A stretch of 64,000 nucleotides of DNA, from positions 12,752,501 through 12,816,500 of the forward strand of contig NC_073354.2 of the NCBI RefSeq assembly GCF_027580225.2, given 5' to 3'. The stretch comes from Misgurnus anguillicaudatus. Lineage: Eukaryota; Chordata; Actinopteri; Cypriniformes; Cobitidae. Positions 6,044-64,000 of this stretch are shown in pieces; the stretch's first letter is position 1; each line of letters opens with the position of its first letter. Made by a program: the position numbers and the translations under genes. The notes beneath the pieces are model-generated. The model did no database searches, was not told where the DNA came from, and saw nothing but the letters and a program-made list of their open reading frames with translations.

Positions 6044-6758
6044 CAGTGGTTCTTAAACTTTTTCGGCATGCGGCCCCCCTTGGTGCATACCTTCGCACAT
6101 CCCCCCCAATAGAAAATGTCTAAAAAAAAAATTCTAAAACTTAAAATTTTATTTAGAGGTGCACCGATATATTGGCCGATGATGCTTGCAATACTTCTCA
6201 ATGAGTTACGATGAAATGCAGCTACATCCAAAAGCCAGAGGGCGCTCTCGTGCAGAAACTCAATATGCGCTGTAGACAAAGAACCATACACGCGCAGCTA
6301 TGACACGCAGCTCCAGAAAATGTTTTAAGGATATATTTATATTGCTGTCATTCAAACCTTTTCAGATATTTTAATAAAGAATATGTATAATGATTATGTT
6401 TGACAAGTGTTGCTTTATCAAAGGCAAAATATAAACGACTCAAACGTACGGTGACCATACGTGCCATTCTTCCCGGACCTGTCCTGGCCAGGATTTCGGT
6501 GCATCTTCCGGAAGTTGCATTTGTTGACCGCATGCGCCATTCAGTTAAAAACATAAGACATACAATCATAGTTTCATTTTTACCTAAAAATCTAATTGTT
6601 TCTTTTCTGTAATAATAATAATAATCCTCTATGACGTATGGGGTCAACAAATATGAAATCCTGGCCAAGACGTGTCCGGGAATAATGGCACGTATGGTCA
6701 CCCTACTCAAACTAACAGGGATTTCAGATCGAAATCGGAAAAAGGTTTGTAACCACTG
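6044..6758. mobile_element. hAT-type element with CAGTGGTT ends, carrying a nested MITE
   Basis: CAGTGGTTCTTAAACTTTTT at 6044 and inverted ...GTAACCACTG ending 6758. The flanking 8-mers GCATAGAG and GCATAGTC match at 6 of 8. A different 259-bp hAT MITE is inserted at 6447-6705. Confidence 0.6.
6447..6705. mobile_element. hAT-type MITE, TAGGGTGACC family, copy 1
   Basis: Termini TACGGTGACCATACGTGCC (6447) and inverted TAGGGTGACCATACGTGCC (ending 6705). The 8-bp flanks CTCAAACG and CTCAAACT match at 7 of 8. The interior is shared with the copy at 41968-42250. Confidence 0.8.
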
Positions 6759-11962: not shown

Positions 11963-12163
11963 CCCTTGCTGGGAGTGAATGAGATGCCCTGTCGAGGTTA
12001 GAGGCGGCAGTGGACTGTTCCAGAGTCAGTGGAAAGCCCCTCTAGATGAGCCAGTCACAGCCACCCAGCTGCACGGTAAAGGAATAAGGATTTAATATGT
12101 CAACAGAGGCCGAGCTCCAGCCTGCTGCCAGACCCAGCGTCAGAAAGGATTCCAGGAGAAGAG
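11963..12163 (+). CDS. dab1: dab1 exon with 5'UTR and first coding codons (CDS 12097-12163)
   Basis: Exon of disabled-1, the cytoplasmic adaptor that binds NPxY tails of the Reelin receptors ApoER2/VLDLR and is tyrosine-phosphorylated during neuronal positioning. A strong acceptor (pyrimidine-rich tract ending TTGCAG at 11957-11962) opens the exon, and a GTAGGAG donor follows at 12164. The coding part starts at ATG 12097 (A at -3) and gives 22 residues, MSTEAELQ then PAARPSVRKDSRRR, plus one base of a split glycine codon. This matches the conserved Dab1 N-terminus (MSTE.ELQ...KDSR). An in-frame TAA at 12085-12087 lies upstream of the ATG, so the coding start is fixed. Joining phase 1 to 60002 restores the Dab1 reading frame. 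The 134-nt leader contains three short upstream ORFs. The a/b paralogue is unresolved. Confidence 0.9.
11979..12095 (+). promoter_or_regulatory. upstream ORF of 38 codons in the dab1 leader
   Basis: ATG at 11979 opens an uninterrupted 38-codon frame whose TAA is at 12093-12095, leaving one base before the dab1 ATG at 12097. It is in a different frame from dab1. Two smaller uORFs share the leader: ATG 11984 to TAG 11999 (5 codons) and ATG 12046 to TAA 12085 (13 codons, same frame as dab1). Together they would be expected to lower initiation at the main ATG. That role is inference; the ORFs themselves are visible. Confidence 0.5.
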
Positions 12164-16641: not shown

Positions 16642-18297
16642 TATGAATCACACAAGTGTTTGTTTGAGAAATAATGTCTAGTGATGGTAATTCATTTTGT
16701 TTATCAGGCTCTCAAAAAGGACATAATAAAGTCTGATTTCTCTAAACCACTTAAAATAGTTTTTAGTTCTTCAAAAACTCTTATGTTTATGATCAGAATA
16801 AATGGAATAAACAGTCAAAGACTAAACCTTTTAACCTTTCTTTTTACCAGTTGCAAACAAAACAGATTTAATTATGCCCGTAGGAACCTCATTGACACGC
16901 AGCTTTAAAAACGCAATATGTTTTTTCTGTCAATTGCTTTGCCTTGAATATTCAAGCACTAAACAGCGGTCACAAACATCCACCTGTCTCTTCACCATCT
17001 CCATAACAAGCCTGACCCGCATCCTTATTCCCTAAGGAATCGATTTAATTACACCTGCTGTCTTTCCCCCCTAGCAACCATTAGAGCGGGACAAACTGCA
17101 TATTCCTCTGTTTATGACCACAAAACAGCACTAATGTGTTGCTAATGACAACGACCTTCCATCCCTATGGGGACCGGTTTAATATGACCTACAGCAAGCA
17201 GTTAATGACAGCCTTCTCCTTATTCAAAGAGGTTATCCTATCTGTCACCATTAAGAGTGACTCCTCTGTCTTACCCAAAATGCAACAGTGAATGCAGTCT
17301 AGTTAGATCAGAATTTTCAAGACGTGTGCATTACTAGTGGGGCACTTTTTGACCTTTTGAGATTTTAATTCAAGTAGAAGAAAGTTTTATTTGCATTTTG
17401 TGTATGCATTTGTGTTTATTTAGTTCATGGGGCAATCAGTTTGCATGTCAAAACTACATTTCCCATCATCCTCTGCAGCAGAACGAAAATGATGAATGAC
17501 AAGGATAACGCATTAATTACACGGCCAATTATTTTGCCTTTGTTTTGAAAGCTTCCTGTTTTTTTAAGAAGAGAGACAATGACATTGTGTAATATTTTTA
17601 TGTAGCATTTGAATTTAAATCAGAGCATAATTATGACCTTGTAACTCATAAGTATGTACAAAAGTCAGTTTTAAAGGCCGCATGTGACCACCATCACATG
17701 TATCTGCTGATAAGTGCAGTGATAAAATCATCTTTAGATCAGTGACCCAAAAACTGGTTATAAGAATTGGTCAGACAGAGTAGAAAAACAATGTTAAGCA
17801 TTTAGTATAGCAAAAACATAACATATATTTTTTTTAAACTGTGAAGAAATCACTTATAGTTGCCAACATGGACTGAATGGTGTGACATGTGTTTATTTTT
17901 GAAAACCATAAAAAACTATGCAAGGTTAACTAAAGCAAAATCTATATTAAATATTGATTCACTTGCAACACGATTAAACATGGTTCACGCTGACCACGAT
18001 GAGTCATATGTCCCTTTTGCCGAGAGCACGAAATCATTGAAATTCAATTTTGTGTCATAAACAATTGTGTTGGGTCATCCTTGATGTCTAGTGTATAATC
18101 AGGGTCCTGAGGCAAAGTCAACTGAGAACCACTGCTGTAGGCAATAAAGATCATACACCATCATCAAAACACCGAAGACAAGGTTCTGGATTACTCTGGT
18201 GTAATAACATTGGTACACACACACTGAGGTTTTAAACATGCCACTAAATTAATTGAGGAATAATGAACCAGGCTTTTATGTGCAGCTGGGTCCCGAA

Positions 18298-18301
<4 letters not shown>
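16642..18301. other. No gene recognised; non-repetitive stretch at 16920-17290
   Basis: 16920-17290 is unique in the window, of balanced composition, with TAATTA/TAATGA homeodomain-type words. It is a candidate conserved intronic element. The remainder is AT-rich and unassigned. Confidence 0.35.

Positions 18302-18361
<60 letters not shown>
18302..18361. repeat. (GA)30 microsatellite
   Basis: A perfect GA run of about 60 bp. Forty bases later comes an (AC)16 run at 18403-18434. Confidence 0.95.
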
Positions 18362-18364
<3 letters not shown>

Positions 18365-18398
18365 GCAGAGTCTCTCTCTCTCACTCACACACATGCGC

Positions 18399-18402
<4 letters not shown>

Positions 18403-18434
<32 letters not shown>
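18403..18434. repeat. (AC)16 microsatellite
   Basis: A perfect AC run downstream of the GA tract. Confidence 0.95.
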
Positions 18435-20526: not shown

Positions 20527-22111
20527 AGGAATTGTCCACTCATTTTCAATATTAAAATATGAAGAGTTTGGTTCCAAAACGCAATAAATCCATTTTGACA
20601 AATTTCGGTAAAAACGTGTTTTCTATACCAAGAAAGTGACAAGATGAAAACCACTATTTTCTGTTACAAACTTTCACATAGCATCTTTAGGTTATAAAAA
20701 CATAAAAAATTCAAATCCATAACTTGATTTTCAAAGATTTATTATAAAAACTAATTATTTTTTCCACAAAATGCAATAAATCCATGACAGTTTTTTATTT
20801 CAAAATGCTATAAATCTATTAAATCAATGTATAAATGTGCATTCATCTTTACCATTTTATATTTATTTAGTTGACTAGTGGTATACAATGATTAAAAAAT
20901 AAACATTAATGGCATTAACCAAAACACTTACTTTGTAAGAACACAATGTTTTAGCATGAGAAGCTTGATGCTGTCTGGAGAACAAGCAACCGAGTGCCAC
21001 TCGCGGAAATTATTAGCTGTTGATGGCTTACGTTTCTTTCCCGTCACAGAAAACCATCACAGGTTTAGCGATGCTATTAAAGTATTATTTTGTTTTGTTT
21101 GTTGATCACGAAGTACAAAGTAGATGAGGAAAACTAGGACTCCGTGTACTCAGCGCGCCGCCATGTTTGTTTACATTGCGTGAATGGTCTGCTGTAATAT
21201 CAGAAATGGATTTATTGCATTCTGTAAAGAAGCAGGAGTGGCGTTTGTCGCATTTTGGGAAAAAAGGGAGAAAAGATGACAGAATATCACGGCGGGTATT
21301 GGATTTTGCGTAAAATGAATTATTTACTTTTAACTACTGACCTGATATAATACTGATTTTGGCAGTAACTCATTTTTTTCAAAAATGGCGTTTATCGCGT
21401 TTTGGAACCAAACTCTTCATATGTTATTACCTTAACTAAGAATTGTTGATACATCGCTCTATCATCTGTGTGCGTGCACGTAAGCGCTGGAGCGCGCTGC
21501 GACGCTTCGATAGCATTTAGCTTAGCCCCATTCATTCAATTGTACCATTTAGAGATAAAGTTAGAAGTGACCAAACACATCAACGTTTTTCCTATTTAAG
21601 ACGAGTAGTTATACGAGCAAGTTTGGTGACACAAAATAAAACGTAGCGCTTTTCTAAGCGGATTTAAAAGAGGAACTATATTTTATGGCGTAATAACATA
21701 TTTGGGAGTACTTCGACTCGACGCAGTAACACCCTCCCTCTCCCATTATGAGAGTGAGAAGGGGAGCGGACTTTTCAGGCGAGTCGAAGTACTCCCAAAA
21801 GTGCTATTACGCCATAAAATATAGTTCCTCTTTTAAATCCGCTTAGAAAAGCGCTACGTTTTATTTTGTACCACCAAACTTGCTCGTATAACTACTCGTC
21901 TTAAATAGGAAAAACGTTGATGTGTTTGGTCACTTCTAACTTTATCTCTAAATGGTACAATTGAATGAATGGGGCTAAGCTAAATGCTATCGAAGCGTCC
22001 CAACGCGCTCCAGCGCTTACGTGCACGCACACAGATGATAGAGGGATGTATCAACAATTCTTAGTTAAGGTAATAACATATTTTAATATTGAAAATGAGT
22101 AGACTATTCCT
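20527..22111. mobile_element. TTAA-flanked long-hairpin MITE, copy 1
   Basis: TTAA at 20523-20526 and 22112-22115. Ends AGGAATTGTCCACTCATTTT and inverted. The arms 21422-21720 and 21780-22085 are nearly identical inverted repeats (a handful of differences), with a spacer of about 60 bp. A TA-flanked element at 20560-21419 interrupts the left arm. Other copies are at 25959-28201 (diverged, composite) and from 63713 (A-to-G hypermutated). Confidence 0.8.
20560..21419. mobile_element. TA-flanked element with TGAAGAGTTTGGTTCCAAAA ends
   Basis: Inverted ends TGAAGAGTTTGGTTCCAAAA and TTTTGGAACCAAACTCTTCA lie between TA dinucleotides (20558-20559, 21420-21421). Removing it restores the hairpin family sequence. 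TA duplication suggests the Tc1/mariner superfamily. No transposase was found. Confidence 0.7.
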
Positions 22112-22115
22112 TTAA

Positions 22116-22274
22116 CACACACACAAACTTGACCCCTGTCTCCAACTCCCCATTATTAGATGTAACACTGCTATTGGGAGTGGGAGGCTGTATTTGTTTT
22201 CCACTATATGTCAGAGTCAGGTGACAGACTTACATTGCACTTTAGGCATGCATGTCATCACAGGAATATATACC

Positions 22275-22335
<61 letters not shown>

Positions 22336-22989
22336 ATTGTGTGCTGTGGAGATATCGTAATTATGAAAACAGAGCGCTTAATTGATTTTGTTCTGAATTG
22401 CGCTCTATTTTCCAAGACCGGTCTTTTGTTGAAGATGTGGATCACTGTCAGAGTTGGCATGCAGGGATTTATTAAACTCTGAGACTGATCATTAAGCTGT
22501 CTATGTCTCTGCTTCCCATCCATATCAGCATATCCCGTTCAATCTTTTCATCCCTAATTCCACTTTTTATCTTTTTCTTCAATGGCTTTGAAAAGAGCCA
22601 CATGCATTCGAGCGTGGTGTGGGAAAGAAAAGCATTCATCCCAACATGTGCTCTAGGAATAATACAGAGGATTGTTTGGAAAAAGATTTTAAATAAAGCC
22701 AAAAATATAGGTTGTCTGTGCTATGGTTAGCTCTCATTGGCTCATACCTTTGTTAATGGCTTATGTACTACACACCGTAATCTGATGTTATGAGGTAGTT
22801 TATAAAACCTGCTGAGGGACATGTAAATGCGTAGATGTTTGTCTTTGATAGCTCAGGGGATGTAATAAAATATGTAAGGATCATGTTTTAATAAATGGCC
22901 AATTTCAAGCAAATGTCAACCTTATCATGTTTATACTGAAGGTCTTAACCATACTGATATTTTATATGTCAATATTTGGTGGTTTTACC
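22116..22989. other. No gene recognised; (GT)n at 22277
   Basis: Unassigned intronic DNA around a long GT tract. The part at 22335-22700 is complex and non-repetitive. Confidence 0.35.
22277..22334. repeat. (GT)29 microsatellite
   Basis: A perfect GT run of about 58 bp, able to form Z-DNA. Confidence 0.95.
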
Positions 22990-25954: not shown

Positions 25955-26453
25955 TTAAAGGAAAACACCACAGATTTTCAATATTTGTTCTATATGTTCT
26001 TACCTTAACTTAGACAAATTACTACATACCTGTCTTTTTTCGATGCGTGCACTTGATCTTTGTGGGGCGCGTCGTGAATGTGTTAGCATTTAGCCTAGCC
26101 CCATTCATTCCTTGGGATCCAAACAGGGATGAATTAAAAGCCACCAAACACTTCCATGTTTTCCCTATTTAAAGACTGTTACATGAGTAGTTACACAGTA
26201 TGGTGGCACAAAATAAAACGTGATGATTTTTTATGCGGATAAAAAATGTTAACTATATTGGATGGCGGAAGAGCACTTAGTTTGTAGCGCTTCGACCTTG
26301 GCGCGCAGTAACATCATCACTCCTGACTACTCCCCCTCTCGCTCAAACTTCCTTCAATAGGGGATTATCACGCTTCCGGGTTTTGTGGGCGGGACTTGTC
26401 AACTTTGTGCATGTCCACTTCCTGCGCAGTTAGCTATTTAACATCCTGTTAAG

Positions 26454-34450: not shown

Positions 34451-35179
34451 GTTTGTCGTATTTTTATCGGTATGGTATATGGTAATAAAATGCAGAGAGT
34501 GCATTTTTAACAATTTAGGCAAATGGTGACTACACTGAAGATGCTAAACTATAAGCTTTGATTTATTTTTGGCTTTACTTAGTCACAACATAATTCCCAA
34601 AGTTATGTTTTACATAAAGTACATATTCTATTGTTTTGATTCAATTGAGTTCACTATTGTCCTATTATTCAAATGTGGGGAAATTGAGTAATGTCTAAAA
34701 TTGCGAATGGCAGTGTATGAAGTTGTTTTGGAACAGGTCAGTGTGTCTGTGGAGGACATGTTGTCTTGCGCATAACGGGCTGGGCTCAGCTCCAATCTAT
34801 TTGAGAAAGTAATTACCTTGCAATTAAAATGATGCTGAGATGTGATGAGTAACAAGTCTCATCATTTCTCTATAAGTCTGCCACCGACTCTCTCTCTCTC
34901 TCCCTCCCTTTGTGTTTGTCTTTCTCCTTCCAGGGACAGTTTATGTAGGAGGTTAAAGATATCGGCCTTGTGTGTGTGTGTGAAGCAGGCAGCAGCAGTT
35001 GGCTATGAGTGTAATTAAATGTGAAGGTGGAAGAGAGAGGAGTGAATTGCAGATTCATTTATCTTCTGCCAGTCAGAGAGAAGCAGAAAGTGTGTGAGAA
35101 TGGCTGGCAGTTAGCTGTGCAGGACTGGACTAGAACTTGACTGATGGAGATTGCTGATTGGACTTCAGAGGCGGTATGG

Positions 35180-35201
35180 GTGTGTGTGTGTGTGTGTGTG
35201 T

Positions 35202-35202
<1 letters not shown>
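35180..35202. repeat. (TG)n microsatellite
   Basis: A TG run directly adjoining the GA tract. Confidence 0.95.

Positions 35203-35283
<81 letters not shown>
35203..35283. repeat. (GA)n microsatellite, about 80 bp
   Basis: A nearly perfect GA run of about 40 units. The long open frames over it on both strands are low-complexity artefacts. Confidence 0.95.
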
Positions 35284-35285
<2 letters not shown>

Positions 35286-35359
35286 CGGGGGGCGGGAGCA
35301 GTATGGATACGTGCATTGTGTGTTAGTAGTATCTGTGGGAAACTGGATCATTACCTTAA

Positions 35360-41640: not shown

Positions 41641-42600
41641 GTTGATCAGGCTATTAGACCACTTGGCCAACCAGCTAGACCAGCTGAACTTTTGCATTGC
41701 CAAGCTGGGACACTTGCTAGACCAGCTGAAGATTCACTTGGCCAATATGGGAGATTAGCTAGACATGCTGAAGATTTACCTGGCCAAGCTGGGAGACTAG
41801 CTAGGCCAGCTGAGGATTCACTTAGCCAAGATGGGAGATTAGCTAGACATGCTGAAGATTTACCTGGCCAAGCTGGTAGACTAGCTAGACTTGCTTGGTC
41901 AAGCAGGGAGACTAGCTAGGCCAGCTGAGGATTCACTTAGCCAAGATGGGAGATTAGCTAGATATGCTAGGGTGACCATACGTGCCATTCTTCCCGGACG
42001 CATCCTGTCCAGGATTTCAGGTGCGTCTTTCGGAAGTCGTATTTGTTGACCGCATACGCCATTCAGTTAAAAACATAAGATATACAATCGTAGTTTCATT
42101 CTTACCTTAAAATGTAACAGTTGCTTTTCTGTAACAATAATAATAATAATCCTCTATGACGTATGCGGTCGACAAATATGACTTCCGGGAGACGAACACA
42201 AAATCCTGGACGGGATGCGTCCGACAAGAATGGAACGTATGGTCACCCTAAGATATGCTGAAGATTTACCTGACCAAGCTGGTAGACTAGCTAGACTTGC
42301 TTGGTCAAGCTGGGAGACTAGCTAGGCCAGATTATGATTTGCTTGGCCAAGCTGGGAGACAAGCTAGACCAGCTGAAGATTCGATTGGCCAAGCTGGGAA
42401 ACTAGCTAGACCAGCTGAAGATTCATTTGGCCAAGCTGGGAGACTAGCTAGACCAGCTGAAGATTCATTTGGCCAAGCTGGAAGATTAGCTAGACCAGCT
42501 GAAGATTTGATTGGCCAAGCTAGGTAGATCAGCTGTAGACCCACTTGGGCAGGCTGAGAGATTAGCTGCACCTGTTGTAGACCTGCTTTGCCAAAATTAG
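41641..42600. repeat. 42-bp minisatellite, about 15 units, interrupted by a hAT MITE
   Basis: Units of the form GCTAGACCAGCTGAAGATTC...CTTGGCCAAGCTGGGAGACTA recur with exact 42-bp spacing in the right part (for example 42363, 42405, 42447, 42489). The left part is more diverged. Since 42 is a multiple of 3, open frames run through it on both strands; these are not genes. A 283-bp hAT MITE interrupts it at 41968. Confidence 0.9.
41968..42250. mobile_element. hAT-type MITE, TAGGGTGACC family, copy 2, 8-bp TSD AGATATGC
   Basis: Ends TAGGGTGACCATACG and inverted CGTATGGTCACCCTA. AGATATGC is repeated exactly at 41960-41967 and 42251-42258. Excising it rejoins one minisatellite unit in register. 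It is the same family as 6447-6705. Confidence 0.9.
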
Positions 42601-58652: not shown

Positions 58653-60168
<1,516 letters not shown>

Positions 60169-61508: not shown

Positions 61509-63708
61509 ACTAATATAAATGTTAGAAATGTATTGCTGAAACATGTTACAAAGACTGTGAACTATGTAGTACTGAGTTGTGGATGTATTCATTTAAAAAA
61601 AAAAATCTTACATCTGAGTTCAGAGTTATTTATGGGGCGGGGTTAAAAGGGTGGCTCGATGGCACACCGGAGCCACCGTGCATGTCTCCGCCCTTAACAC
61701 AATCAGAAGCATCCATTCAGGTTGTAGCGGTATTTGAAAGTTAAGAGACGGCAGCTTTCCCATGAGTGGGTGTGGTTTTAGCACAGTCAGGGGACATGCC
61801 CCACTATTTGAGAGCAGATATTCATGCCTATTTTTCCAAGATTTTGTTACCTAATTTTATTTACTTGCCATTTTCCTCATTCACATTTAATATCAGACTT
61901 TTCACAGATTTTAATATTGTGTAATATATATTTTCTTCAAAATCAATGTTAAAAATTTACCATCATGAAATAAAAATGTGTATCCCCTTTCAAGAAGTCC
62001 ATAAATTAAAAATACTGAAAGCTGGTAGCTGGTTTTAGCTGGTTTAAGGTGGCAGTAGATGGTCCTTCCAGCCTGACCAGCTAAGTCCTGCTTAAAAAGT
62101 GACCAAAACACAGCTTGATCAGCTTAAAAAATGACCAAAACACAGCTAGACCAGCTTGCCACACCATCAATACCAGCTAAAACCAAGCTGGGAGACCAGT
62201 TAAAACCAGCTCACCAGCTTATACTGGTCTTAGCTGGATTTTTCAGTAGTGTTGAAGTGATACACTGTAGGCACCAAGAAATGTGTTCCTTGTAGTTAGA
62301 TTGTACTTGTTTAACAACTCTTAGTAAATTATGATCAAGGTTGTTGTGATTATATCACAGGTGAAAGGACACACGGGTCACCTGACAAAGAAAACATAGC
62401 AGATGCAGTTTGTCAGAAATGTATTCATACTACACCCACCCATAAAATGTACTGTTTTAACGCTAAAGCTGTAAGTGCATCATCTAATTAAGTAAGTACT
62501 ATCGCAGAAAACAATTTCGGATGCAGCCTGTGACTTCAGTAGCTTGATGAACAAACAACATCCATCAGATTGGACAACAAGCCATGTGAACACCGGGGAT
62601 CACAGTAAAGACTATACATGGGTTGTGTGTCTGTGCGTGTATGTTTACCTGTTTTTGTTTGCTCTCCATGTGTTTGATAGAGAGGATGATTCACCATCTG
62701 CATTTGCATGTTGGTCTGATTGGAACGTCCAGAGTGTTATTGATCGGAGGTGTTTCGCCCTCACTCACCCGGACACATAATCTATACTCATATTCCCCCA
62801 GTCCTCCACTCCTTAGCAAACAAATGAGCCCCATGTTATCATTTTTAATCTCTTGTTTCTCGCTCTATCTTTCTGAGTTCATCACACAAGTTTTAAACAA
62901 AAGTTTTATTCAGATAATCCCCAGATAAGCACACACAGTGCCCATAAAAAAAGTGTCAAATTTCTGCACCACTATTACCAAATGAGATGATTGTTGTTAA
63001 ACAGGTTTCCCGAACACTGTCACTGATTTTCATTAGTTAGAGTCACAAATCCAAGCATCACATATTAAGAGTTTGAATTGTCAGAGTTGGTCCTCTATTC
63101 AGTGTGATCTCAATATCTCTAACATTAAAATGTGTCATTCATCAGCCTAACAGCACATATGCCACTGACTTGCATGTTGTAACTCGTCAAAACTGAAGTT
63201 AATTTTTTATCTTTTTTAACACTAAATCTAATAACACACATATTTAACTTTTTACTTTAAATGAGTTTTGAATCTTAACATGGTTTCTTAATGGAGGATG
63301 GAGGCATTTTGGTAACAGGACTGAGTTTTTAGCATAGATTTTGCAAATACATGAAATATAGCTGGATTAAATATATGTGCATCAAAGAAATAATATAGGT
63401 AAAAGGACTGAACATTAAGATTGACATTCACAGTCATAGCATCAATATCATAAAATATACAGAAAAAGAAAATGAGAAAAGTAACATTTGTCTTCACAGA
63501 AGATCTAGATGATGAATCTTTCTTTTGTAAATGAATATTATGACTTTTTTAATGTTAAAAAAATATTTAAAGCAAAGATGGGATATGTTCCTACACAAAA
63601 GTGCAACAATAAATAAATAAATGAAGATATCTGAAGAATTGTATGATTTAAATTTAAAGTATATAGATAGTTTTAATAAAATGCTTTCAGTGTTCTATGT
63701 AGTTTGTA
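61509..63708. other. No gene recognised; CCAGC-rich repeat at 62015-62255
   Basis: 62015-62255 contains many inverted AGCTGGT/ACCAGCT words, the same vocabulary as the minisatellite at 41641 and the fragment at 29967. The rest is unassigned intronic DNA. Confidence 0.45.
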
Positions 63709-63712
63709 TTAA

Positions 63713-64000
63713 AGGAATGGTCTACTCATTTTCAATATTGAAGTATGTTGTTACCTTAACTAAGAATTGTTGATACATCCCTCTATCATCTGTGTGCGTG
63801 CGCGTAAGCGCTGGAGCGCGCTGCGACGCTTCGGTGGCGTTTGGCTTGGCCTCATTCGTTCAATGGTACCATTTGGAGATGAGGTTGGAAGTGACCGAGC
63901 ACATCGGCGTTTTTCCTGTTTGGGACGAGTGGTTGTGCGAGCAAGTTTGGTGGTACAGGGTGAAGCGTGGCGCTTTTCTGGGCGGATTTGGAGGAGGAAC
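63713..64000 (+). mobile_element. Long-hairpin TTAA MITE, copy 3, A-to-G hypermutated, cut by window edge
   Basis: TTAA at 63709-63712 is followed by AGGAATGGTCTACTCATT, aligning without gaps to the left arm at 20527/21422 and to the inverse of 22111-21820. By hand alignment it differs at about 36 positions where the others have A and this copy has G, against about two other changes (one C to T, one T to G). For example TAGCATTTAGCTTAG has become TGGCGTTTGGCTTGG. The changes are clustered: four before 63740, none over 63740-63798, then dense to 64000. Confidence 0.85.

Follow-up and report, generated by a model that had tools for sequence, protein, structure and literature searches.

The analyzed window comprises 64,000 nucleotides of Misgurnus anguillicaudatus DNA, and its last 288 bases (63713-64000, + strand) hold the first-arm part of a hypermutated hairpin MITE copy, which carries 35 to 36 A-to-G changes and is cut by the window end. 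A dab1 coding exon was recognized at 60001-60141 on the + strand, with 91% identity to part of human DAB1 (E = 2e-22) and a GTGCG donor behind it. Additionally, a weak match to the first dab1 coding exon was found at 12097 (E = 0.38). By this similarity to the human protein, and with the exon on the + strand and a donor after it, the hypermutated copy is assigned to the dab1 intron that follows, with its changed + strand predicted to be the dab1 sense strand. The preliminary description of this DNA had assigned the changed strand to the dab1 sense, and the orientation of the exon agrees with it.

The same family is represented by a copy at 20527-22111 (+ strand), which has no A-to-G tract and retains both arms, located at 21419-21745 and 21755-22081 and 94% complementary. 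A nested insertion of approximately 860 bases lies inside this copy (approximately 20562-21418); the nested element has inverted ends (GAAGAGTTTGGTTCCAAAACGC) and ATATG on each side. The third copy (approximately 25955-26370, + strand) is diverged, at about 70% identity, and has one recognizable arm; it was used as the outgroup, and its right end was sought within the window and not found. The 20527 copy has TTAA and matching ends on both sides, whereas the 25955 and 63713 copies have TTAA at the left end. At the outer edge of the hypermutated copy, the TTAA was read directly at 63709-63712, and its likeness to the left edges of the other two copies suggests the target-site class. Pattern scans for the hairpin family in viral and prokaryotic contigs resulted in no match, which has little weight given those organisms. 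Other repeats of the window include minisatellite arrays at 41673-42521 and 62078-62157. Their 42-base unit includes AGCTAGACCAGCT, a motif that is found again in the 32-base array at 62078.

For the family as such, the capacity to form a long double-stranded RNA was assessed by folding. When folded, the inner stretch of the 20527 copy (21415-22111) forms a near-perfect hairpin of -546 kcal/mol, compared with -164.5 kcal/mol for 20 shuffled sequences. For the family, this folding agrees with the earlier proposal that the long inverted repeat may be an ADAR substrate; only one arm of the 63713 copy is within the window, and its second arm is past the window end.

For the substitution spectrum, we aligned positions 63713-64000 to each arm of the copy at 20527-22111, and the seven positions where the arms differ were left out of the main count. 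The results show that, at the bases where both arms agree, 35 of the 90 A were changed to G, along with one C-to-T and one T-to-G change. At the same bases, T-to-C changes were seen at none of 86 T, and G-to-A changes at none of 54 G. The chance of all 35 changes falling on A, if A and T were equally mutable, is 6e-11. When arm 2 alone (the reverse complement of 21824-22111) was the reference, 36 of 91 A were changed to G, with one each of C-to-T, T-to-G, T-to-C, and G-to-C; the last two are private to arm 2, as the 63713 copy has the same base as arm 1 at both sites. Against arm 1, the comparison resulted in 35 A-to-G, three C-to-T, one G-to-C, and one T-to-G, with T as the 5' neighbor in 16 cases, A in 11, C in five, and G in two. 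The approximately 36 A-to-G changes on the + strand given in the preliminary description were reproduced exactly as 36 against arm 2. Its statement that only two other substitutions occur, none of them T-to-C, holds where the arms agree but fails against each arm singly.

Nearly all changes in the 63713 copy are thus A-to-G on one strand, as ADAR would leave them. The derived clusters of C-to-T or G-to-A in preferred contexts that APOBEC or AID would leave were not observed where the arms agree, with no G-to-A and a single C-to-T. At 63723 and 63954, two of the seven positions left out, the 63713 copy and arm 2 have T and arm 1 has C, and the third copy, inspected by eye, has C at both. These two sites could be further C-to-T changes common to the 63713 copy and arm 2. 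The alignment with the third copy also contains two G-to-A columns, which by eye are in the flank, since this alignment began before the element.

The direction of the changes was taken from the third copy. At the 36 A-to-G sites, it has A at 28, T at four, C at three, and G at one, corresponding to a log10 likelihood ratio of about 20 for ancestral A under an assumed 65% identity of the third copy. Because the third copy mostly has A at the changed sites, A is the ancestral base and G the derived one. The third copy has C at the C-to-T site and G at the T-to-G site; due to the latter, the T-to-G difference was assigned to the 20527 copy or its subfamily. As a result, where the arms agree, the 63713 lineage keeps one further derived change besides A-to-G, the C-to-T, with the third copy as outgroup.

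In the main count, the change rate by 5' neighbor was 17 of 28 for T (0.61), 12 of 30 for A (0.40), five of 16 for C (0.31), and one of 16 for G (0.06), which is the ADAR order of U, A > C >> G. The ordered 5' trend of T > A > C > G had a permutation p of 0.00011 against arm 2. A 5' G preceded one of 35 changed A and 15 of 55 unchanged A (Fisher p = 0.0036), and a 3' G followed 11 of 35 changed and 10 of 55 unchanged A, which is raised and not significant (p = 0.20). The previously hand-counted 5' neighbors (T 18, A 12, C 5, and G 1) were recovered as exactly the same numbers against arm 2, with the ADAR order. Zebrafish RNA editing sites are likewise depleted of G upstream and enriched in G downstream, according to the available portion of PMC8096273.

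Along the arm, the changes were sparse up to 63833 (five of 32 A) and dense beyond it, where 31 of 59 A were changed in the section at 63834-63993 (+ strand). A likelihood-ratio change-point test stratified by neighbor gave p = 0.008, on which we rely weakly, and an unweighted change-point statistic gave p = 0.25. A Fisher test for position gave p = 0.001, with a cut that was picked after viewing the data. The uneven density, if real, may mark the end of a duplex or of a repair tract. Within 63713-63833, nine A after T in the first 100 bases of the arm are unchanged. The flank at 63600-63712 retains 17 TA dinucleotides in 113 bases, and because of these the A-to-G tract does not appear to extend visibly into the flank, an indirect reading made from the retained TA.

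We compared 55 repeat-pair rows of at least 100 aligned columns as controls across the window; these rows overlap and are not independent. The 63713 copy takes part in two of the 55 rows; in these, 36 and 34 A/G differences run in one direction and one and zero, respectively, in the other. No comparable one-way A/G excess was found in the other 53 repeat-pair rows of the window. A self-scan with A and G collapsed flagged three of 272 BLAST rows, and a scan with C and T collapsed flagged one of 240; every flagged row is the 63713 locus. Among the control collapses, A/C and G/T flagged no rows, A/T flagged 91, and C/G flagged 21, and the flagged A/T and C/G rows (18296-18434, 22272-22343, and 35176-35288) are within or beside dinucleotide arrays. 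The 53 other rows and the A/G self-scan thus show no similar A-to-G tract among the other repeats of the window.

Arm-to-arm transitions were also compared in the palindromes of the window at 6446, 12812, 21419, 31023, 31424, 41962, 50153, 57487, 57708, and 61166. On the + strand, these palindromes lean to A.C over G.T mismatches (AG+CT 66 vs. GA+TC 37, in 10 rows, one of them nested). Such an A.C lean is the opposite of the trace expected from + strand A-to-G change.

ADAR-type editing of a sense hairpin RNA, followed by reverse transcription and return to DNA, is the likeliest account of the 63713 copy, and we consider it probable. Its observed basis is the one-strand derived A-to-G change, the neighbor order, the absence of a similar tract from the other repeats of the window, the hairpin capacity of the family, and the sense orientation. 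From these we infer ADAR as the enzyme, an RNA stage, a germ-line setting, reverse transcription, and the way in. A dab1-sense transcript of the hairpin MITE would fold into a long double-stranded RNA, and an ADAR-type enzyme would hyper-edit this folded RNA from A to I in the germ line. As the changed bases are in DNA, a return step is needed: reverse transcription of one edited molecule would read I as G, and the resulting cDNA would replace or found the genomic copy at 63713. The entry could have been a repair event at the inverted repeat in which the edited RNA, or the cDNA made from it, served as template; alternatively, a TTAA-type transposase could have mobilized a double-stranded cDNA. 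We lean to repair in place over transposase entry because the outer 121 bases are little changed and the TA-rich flank looks untouched.

Several points stand against this account. A DNA transposon lacks an RNA stage of its own, and the TTAA at the outer edge of the element is the mark expected of DNA transposition. The visible part of the 63713 copy showed no footprint of reverse transcription; with respect to the marks of retro-insertion (poly-A, truncation, and variable target duplication), the left edge has TTAA as in the other copies, and the right edge is past the window. The evidence comprises one locus and one arm, the 3' G excess falls short of significance, and an uneven change density is not something that editing of a full hairpin would call for by itself. 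Moreover, no such tract is present in the 20527 copy, which lies in the same gene and is just as good a substrate.

One alternative is that adenine was deaminated directly in the + strand DNA, either by ADAR on a DNA:RNA hybrid with an antisense transcript or in the single-stranded DNA of an extruding palindrome, which would give one-strand A-to-G change without reverse transcription. A review (PMC12925331) describes ADARs as acting on the DNA strand of hybrids in model substrates, either at dA-C mismatches or through mutant enzymes, and PMC8448848 considers DNA-strand editing near breaks possible; the known activity, however, requires mismatches or mutant enzymes, and the excerpts of these two papers contain no report of such density in DNA. 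Deamination in an RNA:DNA hybrid had been offered in the preliminary description as a route into DNA, and its simple form is not supported here: a sense R-loop hybridizes the template (-) strand and predicts T-to-C on the + strand, which is absent at all 86 T, so the hybrid route would need an antisense transcript. We therefore regard direct deamination of DNA as unlikely. An assembly artifact, with edited bases brought in by RNA-derived reads when the hairpin was filled or polished, is distinctly unlikely. Hairpins are difficult to assemble, and the number of changes resembles a single ultra-edited cDNA; against this, the copy is intronic and 3.6 kb from the nearest exon found, so that RNA reads should be scarce, and no other repeat of the window is affected, including the 20527 copy, which would be as good a substrate.

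Error-prone synthesis, chiefly by DNA polymerase eta, was weighed for its neighbor preference. This polymerase errs at WA motifs, which fits the 29 of 35 changed A that follow T or A, but transversions at A would also be expected from it. None is seen, and all 35 changed A became G; the chance of this is 8e-10 or 4e-6 if 55% or 70%, respectively, of the errors at A were A-to-G (assumed shares), making the polymerase a very improbable source. The reverse polarity, with the 63713 copy as the old form and the G lost from the other copies by C-to-T type deamination, had been named beforehand as a result that would overturn the A-to-G direction, and it is hardly credible after comparison with the third copy, which has A at 28 and G at one of the 36 sites. 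Five changed A follow C, and only at these could CpG decay in the other copies explain the difference. However, the identical change would be needed in both arms of the 20527 copy, and the 5' neighbors of the complementary-strand C (T 11, C 11, A 8, and G 5) show no clear APOBEC motif.

With editing of a hairpin RNA and its return to DNA as the preferred account, the closest known cases are retroviral. Rous-associated virus and avian leukosis virus carry ADAR-type A-to-G clusters, which in an inverted repeat region reach nearly 50% of A (PMC12925331), compared with 35 of 90 A here. Retroviruses reverse transcribe obligatorily, whereas the present element is an intronic hairpin of the DNA-transposon type, and the same review states that it is not known whether ADARs act on the DNA strand in retroviral hybrids. 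The type of event is therefore not wholly new. The suggestion that A-to-G clusters in a DNA-transposon MITE had not been described agrees with the literature matches listed, taken as titles and abstract openings of mostly non-subscription papers, which include no earlier report of such clusters in genomic DNA transposons; the retroviral clusters were already described. The part of PMC5974252 that was available contains nothing on fixed A-to-G tracts.

Palindromic repeats of zebrafish are RNA-edited: in one ANGEL copy, 62 of 63 adenosines are changed, and the editing index peaks in ovary and testes (PMC8096273). ANGEL, of the hAT family, and the other zebrafish palindromes resemble the present copy in being self-complementary repeats with A-to-G change and G depleted at the 5' side; there, however, the changes are in RNA over unchanged DNA, whereas here G is in the genome assembly. 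Two ultra-edited human ESTs have 34 and 25 changes, the first against a clone average of 19 and a maximum of 36 (PMC3197674, in excerpt), and the number of changes in the 63713 copy is on the scale of one ultra-edited RNA molecule. APOBEC G-to-A clusters in retrotransposons are similar as one-type clusters in mobile-element DNA (PMC2873906, in the text available), but the present case differs in its A-to-G chemistry, in its context, and in the type of element, which is not that of a retrotransposon. As a further point against the preferred account, PMC2873906 reports that high-quality human and Xenopus genomic DNA traces had no excess of A-to-G clusters, in a survey that took only uniquely aligned traces and may miss repeats.

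Palindromic repeats are common in zebrafish, as described in the available part of PMC8096273, and for this reason the recurrence of write-back, its strand, and its orientation to host genes can be tested genome-wide by A/G-collapsed alignment. If real, the 63713 copy would preserve RNA editing in heritable form, in the DNA of an element that has no RNA stage, and it would mean that edited RNA can template vertebrate germ-line DNA. More broadly, and only as a tentative proposal, hairpin DNA-transposon transcripts edited by ADAR might return to the germ-line DNA of vertebrates, either in place or as new mobile copies. RNA editing might then be a source of mutation for DNA transposons that disarms their double-stranded RNA and gives rise to new MITE subfamilies.
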